DNA of 64,000 bases from Ignavibacteriota bacterium. Lineage in GTDB: Bacteria; Bacteroidota; Ignavibacteria; Ignavibacteriales; Melioribacteraceae. The stretch spans positions 186,001-250,000 of the forward strand of contig PAAX01000010.1 in the NCBI GenBank assembly GCA_002698995.1, in the 5' to 3' direction. Each line of letters begins with the position of its first letter. The stretch's first letter is position 1. Of this stretch, positions 5,632 through 7,255 are shown one piece after another. Made by a program: the position numbers and the translations under genes. The notes under the pieces were generated by a model. It made no database searches. It saw nothing but the letters and a program-made list of their open reading frames with translations, and had not been told where the DNA came from.

Positions 5632-5845
5632 AAGTGAAAAAGGTTTACTCAGATTTTTTTTGCAAAGTTACCTCAATAATAATTATAGAAAGAAATTAAG
5701 ACGATTCATCTAGTATATTGATTTATTGCAAATCCATTTTTTTAGAAAATTCATTAAAAGTTAATCGAAATTTTTATACAAATAGTTTTCAGATTAAATG
5801 AAAATTCTTATATTTGTTGTTCGGTTCTATATTTATTGGACTTAG

Positions 5846-5926
5846 AAATTCAGCTTTGGAGAGGTGGGTGAGTGGCTGCCATCGCCAAGGCGAGGTTCCG
5901 CCGAAGGCGGAAAAACCAACGTTCTT
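5846..5926 (+). repeat. Duplicated 5' half of tRNA-Ser gene with hairpin insert
   Basis: Bases 5846-5878 are identical over 33 bases to 6170-6202, the upstream flank and 5' part of the intact tRNA-Ser(GCU) gene. A 34-base insert follows (5879-5912) made of two small hairpins, TCGCC-AA-GGCGA and TTCCGCC-GAA-GGCGGAA. Then tRNA homology resumes for AAACCAACG, the start of the anticodon stem, and stops just before the ATG of the GIY-YIG gene. The copy lacks an anticodon loop, T arm and acceptor 3' strand, so it cannot make a tRNA. It forms the leader of the nuclease gene. Confidence 0.85.
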
Positions 5927-6169
5927 ATGTTTATTGTATATATTTTATATAGTGATAATTTCAATAGATTTTATGTTGGGCATACAAAAAACATTGCTCA
6001 GAGGTTGAAAGACCATAATAGAGGAAATGTAAGATCGACTAAAGCTTATGTTCCCTGGAGAGTAGTTTACACAGAAAAGTATGTCACAAAATCTGATGCT
6101 TTCTGCAGAGAGATGGAAATTAAAAGTTACAAAAGCGGTGAAGCATTTAGGAAATTATTACAGAAATAA
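5927..6169 (+). CDS. GIY-YIG nuclease domain protein (tRNA-gene associated)
   Basis: 80 residues from the ATG at 5927. An earlier in-frame ATG at 5864 lies inside the tRNA-like leader and would give a nonsense extension. The protein starts with the GIY-YIG signature FIVYILYSDNFNRFYVGHT, then the catalytic Arg in AQRLKDHNRG, and the C-terminal Glu helix FCREMEIKSYKSG. This is the UPF0213/YhbQ/URI-like stand-alone catalytic domain of about 80-100 residues. Its leader is a duplicated 5' half of tRNA-Ser, and the intact tRNA begins 13 bases after its stop. That placement suggests a selfish insertion that regenerates its tRNA target, which is an inference. Confidence 0.85.
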   Translation: MFIVYILYSDNFNRFYVGHTKNIAQRLKDHNRGNVRSTKAYVPWRVVYTEKYVTKSDAFCREMEIKSYKSGEAFRKLLQK

Positions 6170-6181
6170 AAATTCAGCTTT

Positions 6182-6270
6182 GGAGAGGTGGGTGAGTGGC
6201 TGAAACCAACGGTTTGCTAAACCGTCGTAGTGGGAAACTGCTACCGAGGGTTCGAATCCCTCCCTCTCCG
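6182..6270 (+). tRNA. tRNA-Ser (GCU)
   Basis: An 89-base class II tRNA. Acceptor GGAGAGG pairs with CCTCTCC (6263-6269), the discriminator base is G, and the anticodon stem-loop ACGGT-TTGCTAA-ACCGT carries anticodon GCT. There is a long variable arm, and the T loop is TTCGAATC. No CCA is encoded. Its first 21 bases and 12 bases of 5' flank are duplicated upstream of the GIY-YIG gene. Confidence 0.97.
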
Positions 6271-6282
6271 CTCTATATTTTG

Positions 6283-6325
6283 AAAAGCCCGATTTTAGTA
6301 AAAAACGCTAATTTCGGGCTTTTTT
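6283..6325 (+). terminator. Terminator after tRNA-Ser
   Basis: A 10-bp stem (AAAAGCCCGA / TCGGGCTTTT) spans a 21-base loop and is followed by further T residues. It directly follows the tRNA-Ser gene. Confidence 0.7.
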
Positions 6326-6689
6326 AGTGTCCTTTTCTAAAGATACTCATTTAGTCGATGTTGCATCCTCCCATCATAAAGAATTATATCTGAATAAATC
6401 CAAGCATTTTTGATTATTAGGGAAAGCCGATTTTTTCATAATCAAAGTCACTAAAAATAAATGCCAATCAAAGAGTTATGCCTATATGCATAATAGACTT
6501 GAATCTTCTTAAAAATGATTGTTCTAGGTTTCTTTTATACTATATCGAGACTAATACGAATTTGTATTGGGAATTTTTTATAATTATTCATAGTCCGGCT
6601 TTGATAGTAAACCTGACTGATAAGCTAAAACCTATCTAACCAATATCATTTTGTGTACTTGATTTAATAAATTAGTTTGGATTTTGTAA
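6326..6689. other. Gene-free stretch
   Basis: About 360 bases of AT-rich sequence between the tRNA-Ser terminator and the sorting-domain remnant. I see no open frame with coding character, no RNA gene and no strong hairpin in it. Confidence 0.5.
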
Positions 6690-6919: not shown

Positions 6920-7003
6920 TTACAGTGATAATTTCTTAATATTTAGTCCTTAACAGACGAACATCTTTAATATGCAAACCTCCGAGGTTTTAAAATATTT
7001 TCG

Positions 7004-7120
7004 CTTCGAGTAAGGAGCAAAGCGATGCATCGAGAAGTCATAATCTGAGGTTTCTTGAAATGCAAACCTCCGAGGTTTTGTCCAAAGGACTCCTAAGGAG
7101 AAAACCTCTGAGGTTTTTAA
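7004..7120. repeat. Interspersed repeat, CTTCGAGTAAGGAGC...CCTCGGAGG family, copy 1
   Basis: Begins CTTCGAGTAAGGAGCAAAGC and runs through TAATCTGAGGTTTC to a double palindrome. That end consists of AAACCTCCGAGGTTT, two small hairpins (GTCCAAAGGAC and TCCTAAGGA), then AAACCTCTGAGGTTTTT. Near-identical copies lie at 15395-15514 and 21779-21896, with a truncated copy at 15620-15690. A solo AAACCTCCGAGGTTT also sits at 6975-6990. The structure could act as a bidirectional terminator or a REP-like element. Confidence 0.75.
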
Positions 7121-7255
7121 ATTTTTATAAACATTCTTCGTAACTAATAGAATTAGTAATAAAAATTATTATACATAAATAAAAAATACTGATCACTTAT
7201 AAACTCTAATGAAGGAGTTCCCCAATTTCGTCACTAAAAAAATCTTTCCAATACT

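Follow-up and report, generated by a model that had tools for sequence, protein, structure and literature searches.

A small GIY-YIG nuclease gene beside tRNA-Ser probably belongs to a minimal homing-like element that restores the tRNA gene it enters

Introduction

Genomic islands with tyrosine integrases insert into tRNA genes, carry a replacement half for the gene and leave the displaced part at their far end. tRNA group I introns with homing endonucleases are also selfish insertions aimed at tRNA genes. RAYTs are Y1 transposases. SLX1, a larger repair nuclease of the host, has a C-terminal zinc-finger domain and works with SLX4, and UPF0213 (YhbQ-like) proteins are small GIY-YIG proteins of a single domain.

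Free-standing GIY-YIG homing endonucleases, the Seg proteins, are encoded by T-even phages. Seg genes are enriched in tRNA neighbourhoods across phages, and one of the proteins, SegB, drives tandem amplification of a unit of tRNA plus segB that is 718 bp long in T6 (PMC13096335). GIY-YIG genes also occur in non-intron insertions in the rRNA genes of CPR bacteria, mostly at the tops or bases of stem-loops; the paper on these insertions makes no mention of tRNA (PMC11270868). Homing GIY-YIG genes, restoration of tRNA halves by integrating islands and tRNA introns are known separately. Here we describe a locus that is probably a minimal selfish element of a homing-like kind, directed at tRNA genes; its sole gene product is an 80-aa GIY-YIG nuclease, and it has its own copy of a tRNA half.

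Results

The DNA analysed (the window) is a stretch of 64,000 nucleotides from an Ignavibacteriota bacterium (assembly GCA_002698995.1, contig PAAX01000010.1). An earlier note on this DNA had reported an exact 33-base repeat of flank and tRNA 5' end, followed in the upstream copy by a 34-base double-hairpin insert, nine further bases of tRNA homology and a GIY-YIG gene, with an intact tRNA-Ser downstream. We recovered every one of these features, all on the forward strand. The repeat (5846-5878 and 6170-6202) is exact over 33 nt and reaches 36 nt at 97% identity if extended to 5843 and 6167. Its upstream copy consists of the native 5' flank of the tRNA, AAATTCAGCTTT (5846..5857), and a displaced piece of tRNA-Ser, nucleotides 1-21 (5858..5878, identical to 6182-6202). 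The insert (5879-5912) interrupts the D loop between nucleotides 21 and 22, with a first hairpin, CC-A-TCGCC AA GGCGA-GG, at 5879..5895 and a second, TTCCGCC GAA GGCGGAA, at 5896..5912. Alignment to the tRNA places displaced nucleotides 22-30, AAACCAACG, at 5913..5921. The nuclease gene (5927..6169) runs from an ATG at 5927 to a TAA at 6167-6169, which abuts the second, exact copy of the flank (6170..6181); the program-listed reading frame starts at a GTG at 5864, within the tRNA piece, and homologues start at the ATG at 5927. ARAGORN finds the intact tRNA-Ser(GCT) at 6182..6271, and repeat finding and the sequence itself reveal a terminator-like inverted repeat (I7) with a T-run 3' of it (6283..6330). 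The locus has the upstream form: displaced 5' piece, gene, intact tRNA.

The 21-nt tRNA part occurs at two places only in the window, where shuffled sequence gives a chance expectation of 0, and in the 4.23-Mb genome the leader search matched nothing beyond the full leader itself and the 33-nt copy. The whole insertion is about 320 bases long and contains little besides the one small nuclease gene. An integrase island was rejected because the insertion holds a single ORF, with a GIY-YIG domain and no integrase, and a group I or II intron because Rfam shows only tRNA at the locus and the tRNA is uninterrupted and rebuilt beside the gene. The tRNA-Ser(GCT) at 6182..6271 is the only copy that genome searches found, so a destructive insertion should be lethal. 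Further 3' of the tRNA, an intergenic stretch of the window (6960-7140) contains nested short palindromes, AAACCTCCGAGGTTTT, GTCCAAAGGAC and CTCCTAAGGAG.

The protein matches Pfam PF01541 (GIY-YIG) at 1.1e-14 and matches no NCBIfam model. The Pfam match, the residues and the fold all place it in the GIY-YIG superfamily, which is defined by a domain with catalytic Tyr, Arg and Glu; Y5, Y16, R26, H30 and E62 are invariant in 20 relatives. The predicted structure (pLDDT 94.5) is a bare GIY-YIG domain, with no residue outside the catalytic fold. The solved folds closest to the model are At-HIGLE, SLX1, UPF0213 and I-TevI, with VIA Z of 7-8.2 for the SLX1/HIGLE/UPF0213 group, and the top Foldseek match is 1zg2, to which phmmer gives 4e-4. 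This 80-aa single domain has no separate DNA-binding region such as that of I-TevI or SegB, and on the model there is scant room for recognition of a long sequence. SLX1 and HIGLE are structure-selective nucleases (PMC9071465). Unlike SLX1, the proteins here are 80 aa long, single-domain and tRNA-linked, with no second domain. The bare domain suggests that cutting would follow DNA structure and that the tRNA halves, acting as homology arms, would give the aim.

When 97 related genomes were searched with the protein, 85 yielded relatives, and about 80 places from related genomes, together with the GIY-YIG genes of the bacterium's own genome, made up a first set. Within the window's order and the own genome, 78 of 93 loci had a GIY-YIG gene no more than 400 bp from a tRNA gene, the distance being mostly 4-66 bp in the first set. 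With 42 tRNA genes in 4.23 Mb, fewer than 1% of random genes would be expected to lie so near. Adjacency to tRNA recurred at 33 of 34 loci in a phylum-wide set from outside the window's order and, in a collection of named genomes, at 77 of 80. The nearest GIY-YIG gene was co-oriented with the tRNA at every one of the 78 first-set loci, and the same held in the phylum-wide and named sets. Removing duplicates left 176 non-redundant tRNA-linked loci from many bacterial phyla, and around 15 tRNA isotypes bear the gene with a displaced piece. The named set covers Ignavibacteria, many CPR genomes, Omnitrophota, one Acidobacteriota MAG and isolates of Arenibacter, Maribacter, Psychroflexus and Pontimicrobium; binning errors are possible for its MAGs and do not affect the isolates.

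The leader and nuclease, which the earlier note had proposed to look for away from tRNA genes, were found nowhere beyond tRNA and tmRNA genes, except on contigs cut near a tRNA-derived piece; strong matches without a tRNA were mostly contig ends still bearing such pieces, or lay at tmRNA. In related genome G057 (L094:1036-1723) a GIY-YIG gene lies 16 nt 3' of tmRNA and is followed by a displaced tmRNA 3' end with an insert in the T loop. In G071 (L368:643-1380) the gene is again 3' of tmRNA, and no displaced piece was found at that locus. As many matches lie at contig ends we considered an element of rRNA operons, which was rejected when Rfam showed no rRNA, but tmRNA, in the loci tested. Some of the weaker matches in four complete genomes are genes that lie near neither a tRNA nor a tRNA piece, so not all small GIY-YIG genes belong to the tRNA-linked family. 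Family matches number as many as 18 in one genome, and the strong ones lie mostly at different tRNAs. The own genome has four more tRNA-linked GIY-YIG genes, at tRNA Cys (L007:1746-1908), Leu (L009:1389-2233), Met (L010:1369-1790) and Arg (L017:1407-1638); hairpinned tRNA pieces are present at the first three loci, and the gene beside tRNA-Arg is degraded. No family relatives were found on plasmids or on viral contigs, and among phages there were only two weak matches, in Staphylococcus phages at 37%.

Outside the window, the own genome also contains a second clade of small GIY-YIG genes, which lie in REP-like palindrome arrays and not near tRNAs (L003:900-2157, L004:1300-1980, L005:1250-2030 and L008:1458-2040). 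This clade is possibly a parallel to RAYT/REP systems, which it resembles in having a nuclease-type gene amid palindromes. The nuclease of the window was rejected as a RAYT because it is GIY-YIG and tRNA-linked, not Y1.

Empty tRNA-Ser sites, a further check proposed in the earlier note, are common in relatives, and occupied and empty alleles were both found at one conserved target site. The outcomes of both checks favour the note's interpretation. In genus g37 the tRNA-Ser(TGA) site is empty in L358, has one copy in L354 and three copies of 323 bp in L356, and retains a gene-less scar in L355. In the occupied allele, it is the outermost displaced piece that aligns with the native flank and tRNA nucleotides 1-15 of the empty allele; the sequence preceding the intact tRNA does not. 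The displaced piece thus adjoins the native flank, and the 5' half of the intact tRNA arrived with the inserted DNA, as had been proposed for the window. By this comparison in a sister genus, the 5' part of the window's intact tRNA-Ser(GCT) was probably supplied by the insertion. The tRNA is fully regenerated in occupied alleles.

A mirror form, with the gene downstream and the 3' half displaced, could not be seen from the window alone and is at least as frequent as the upstream form. Here too the native flank marks the displaced part: in L130 compared with L129, and in L137 compared with L138, the native 3' flank follows the displaced 3' piece. Duplicated flank in single upstream insertions is mostly 0-12 nt, which puts the element boundary at the tRNA end. 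Among 55 inspected tRNA-Ser(GCT) loci without the gene, nine carry pieces, several of which are hairpinned scars. Hairpinned partial tRNAs without a nuclease also lie beside tRNA-Ser at L128, L129, L138, L142, L147 and L355; nuclease-less pieces of this kind are probably scars or non-autonomous derivatives. L053 and L169 were rejected as an empty-site pair, since their upstream neighbourhoods differ.

Two or more copies stand in tandem on one side of the tRNA at 41 of the 176 loci, and the periods can be exact, for example 5 x 315 bp and 3 x 323 bp. Arrays are what insertion predicts if the target is regenerated intact and can be attacked again, and T6 SegB provides an experimental precedent for GIY-YIG-driven tandem amplification of a tRNA-nuclease unit (PMC13096335). 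The exact periods would equally follow if a chance duplication of a tRNA region had caught a GIY-YIG gene and replication slippage had later built the arrays, with no mobility at all, and repeats of at least 33 bp favour unequal exchange. Such an origin is unlikely. It does not account for one architecture, always co-oriented, at some 15 isotypes in many phyla, for single upstream copies whose unit stops at the tRNA end, or for nuclease lineages bound to their tRNA target.

A partial tRNA copy lies nearby at 74 of 78 first-set loci, 31 of 33 in the phylum-wide set and 74 of 77 in the named set. As a general rule, an upstream gene is preceded by a 5' piece and a downstream gene is followed by a 3' piece; sometimes the displaced piece is undetectable though the nuclease gene is present, as at L063 and L068. 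Of 73 displaced 5' pieces, 27 stop within the anticodon loop and 24 within the D loop, 51 in all, against a background of about 20% of positions. Among 92 unique inserts of the first set, 61% have a stem of at least 6 bp, compared with 6.6% of random segments. In a wider set of 116 inserts, one or both ends fall in a tRNA loop for 92%, compared with 35% of positions. In Asp and Asn lineages (L118:1398-2870 and, 3' of the tRNA, L064) the tRNA terminator hairpin has been duplicated with the 3' piece and separates the tRNA from the nuclease gene, which must therefore be expressed by read-through or from another promoter.

The leader of the window, folded alone, gave no signal above chance (z -1.3), and support for its hairpins is therefore comparative. 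Hairpin position is constant within a tRNA lineage across genera, and both sides of a stem change together. The position of hairpin 1 is kept in related Ser elements, with compensatory changes, and hairpin 2 was likewise placed by comparison with related elements; Ser elements from Ignavibacteria to one Berkelbacteria genome share the double hairpin at 21|22. In tRNA-Asp elements 99% of cells pair, with eight double-sided changes, and in tRNA-Ser upstream elements 98.7% pair, with five; both covariation scores exceed those of all shuffles, but kinship among the rows inflates them and they are support, not proof, for a conserved structure.

Two other readings start from the hairpins. Small palindromes might themselves be the mobile agent, invading the loops of displaced tRNAs with the nuclease as mobiliser or passenger. 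The inserts do lie in tRNA loops, and the own genome's other GIY-YIG clade does sit inside REP-like palindrome arrays, but constant positions across genera and compensatory changes fit inheritance with the element better than fresh insertion, and we regard this as very unlikely. Alternatively the locus could act at the level of RNA, for example as a type III toxin-antitoxin system in which tRNA is the target of the nuclease and the hairpinned tRNA-like RNA keeps the enzyme in check. A structured tRNA-like RNA and a nuclease in one likely transcript, with covarying hairpins, would suit such a system. The fold, however, is nearest to DNA structure-specific nucleases, and the gene persists where no displaced piece can be detected (L063, L068), making an RNA-level system extremely unlikely.

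We built a nuclease tree with one row per locus; the proteins are short and many forks are poorly supported. On it tRNA isotype changes 11 times, against at least 34 in 200 shuffles, and gene side (upstream or downstream) nine times, against at least 15. Isotype tracking was repeated in the named set (17 changes, at least 34 in shuffles). Host group changes nine times, against at least 21 in shuffles, a signal that implies some crossing of major groups, yet much vertical or within-group spread; this partial fit of the tree to host group leaves limited scope for recent long-range transfer.

The nuclease gene is under purifying selection: the median dN/dS of 120 pairs is 0.18, and most Arenibacter pairs lie at 0.04-0.12. 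Selection of this kind, the SLX1/UPF0213-like fold and co-orientation with the tRNA would all be expected of a useful host gene that is retained in tRNA transcripts because it serves repair, stress response or defence, the tRNA pieces being by-products. We think this improbable, as the gene is patchy within genera, leaves gene-less scars and many empty sites, and occurs in multiple copies per genome at different tRNAs; purifying selection is also seen in homing genes under turnover.

The earlier note had suggested that the gene uses the tRNA promoter, and the distribution of a Bacteroidota-type motif, TAnnTTTG, lends this modest support. The motif precedes the displaced piece at 15 of 63 upstream-class loci and the intact tRNA at 2 of 63 (control about 3%). 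In the window a -7 promoter-like sequence that fits it, TATATTTG (5809..5816), is probably the native tRNA promoter, remaining 5' of the displaced piece. Retention of the motif at that place suggests that gene and tRNA are transcribed together from the native promoter, and that the nuclease is probably expressed via the tRNA's own transcript.

Discussion

The picture that best fits these results is of a homing-like element whose GIY-YIG nuclease would cut or nick tRNA genes. The break would be repaired by recombination with an occupied copy, in which tRNA sequence on either side of the gene provides homology arms. In the upstream form the left arm would pair with the displaced 5' piece and the right arm with the intact tRNA's 3' part, whereupon the repair copy would bring in the gene and a new 5' half; the downstream form would be its mirror image, with intact tRNA, gene and displaced 3' half in that order. 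As comparison of alleles shows, the inserted DNA supplies the missing half, leaving a whole tRNA on one side of the gene; the displaced half stays with its native flank and holds hairpins in the D, anticodon or T loop. The hairpins probably keep the displaced half from being folded, processed or cut as a tRNA.

Several findings count against this picture: the nuclease has no DNA-binding region beyond its catalytic domain, no relatives were found on plasmids or viral contigs, with only the two weak phage matches, and the nuclease tree in part follows host group. It also has a problem of self-protection, as the regenerated tRNA should stay cleavable.

The element shares features with each of the described systems. 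Like tRNA-targeting integrative elements, it has a restored half and a displaced half at the far end. It differs from integrase islands in its size of about 320 bp, in that either half can be replaced, in the hairpins of the displaced half and in forming arrays. With tRNA group I introns it shares a nuclease gene and would share selfish insertion aimed at tRNA genes. As in the Seg systems, a GIY-YIG gene adjoins tRNA genes, but Seg genes are phage-borne whereas the elements here are chromosomal and encode only about 80 aa, and the accessible account of Seg reports no restored tRNA half or hairpinned displaced tRNA (PMC13096335). The CPR rRNA insertions also pair GIY-YIG genes with stable RNA genes as targets; they lie inside the rRNA genes and are sparse, and the accessible text describes no restored half (PMC11270868).

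The earlier note knew of no described element of this form, and we too found no account of such elements in the open-access literature, a scope that leaves out preprints and most subscription journals. As far as we found, a one-gene element that combines these properties with hairpinned displaced tRNAs is new. It is probably a homing-type selfish element and may form a class of its own. More tentatively, and stopping just short of calling it probable, we propose a novel class of mobile DNA, made up of elements of about 300-450 bp that have one gene each and range across Bacteroidota, Ignavibacteriota, CPR and other phyla. Their nuclease would open tRNA and tmRNA genes at foldable structures. 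The elements' own tRNA halves would provide both repair and aim, with no integrase, intron or DNA-binding domain, and hairpins would disarm the displaced tRNA.

Few DNA targets in life are as conserved as tRNA genes, which every species must keep whole. If our reading is true, a one-gene element that rebuilds the tRNA it has broken could enter almost any genome cheaply. It would account for many of the small genes annotated as 'GIY-YIG nuclease family' in Bacteroidota and CPR genomes, for tRNA fragments beside tRNA genes and for some of the contig breaks at tRNAs. With only one 80-aa enzyme and one 90-bp target, the system lends itself to reconstitution, which would open direct tests of how a homing element coexists with an indestructible target and of whether homology alone can aim a nuclease that has no DNA-binding domain.
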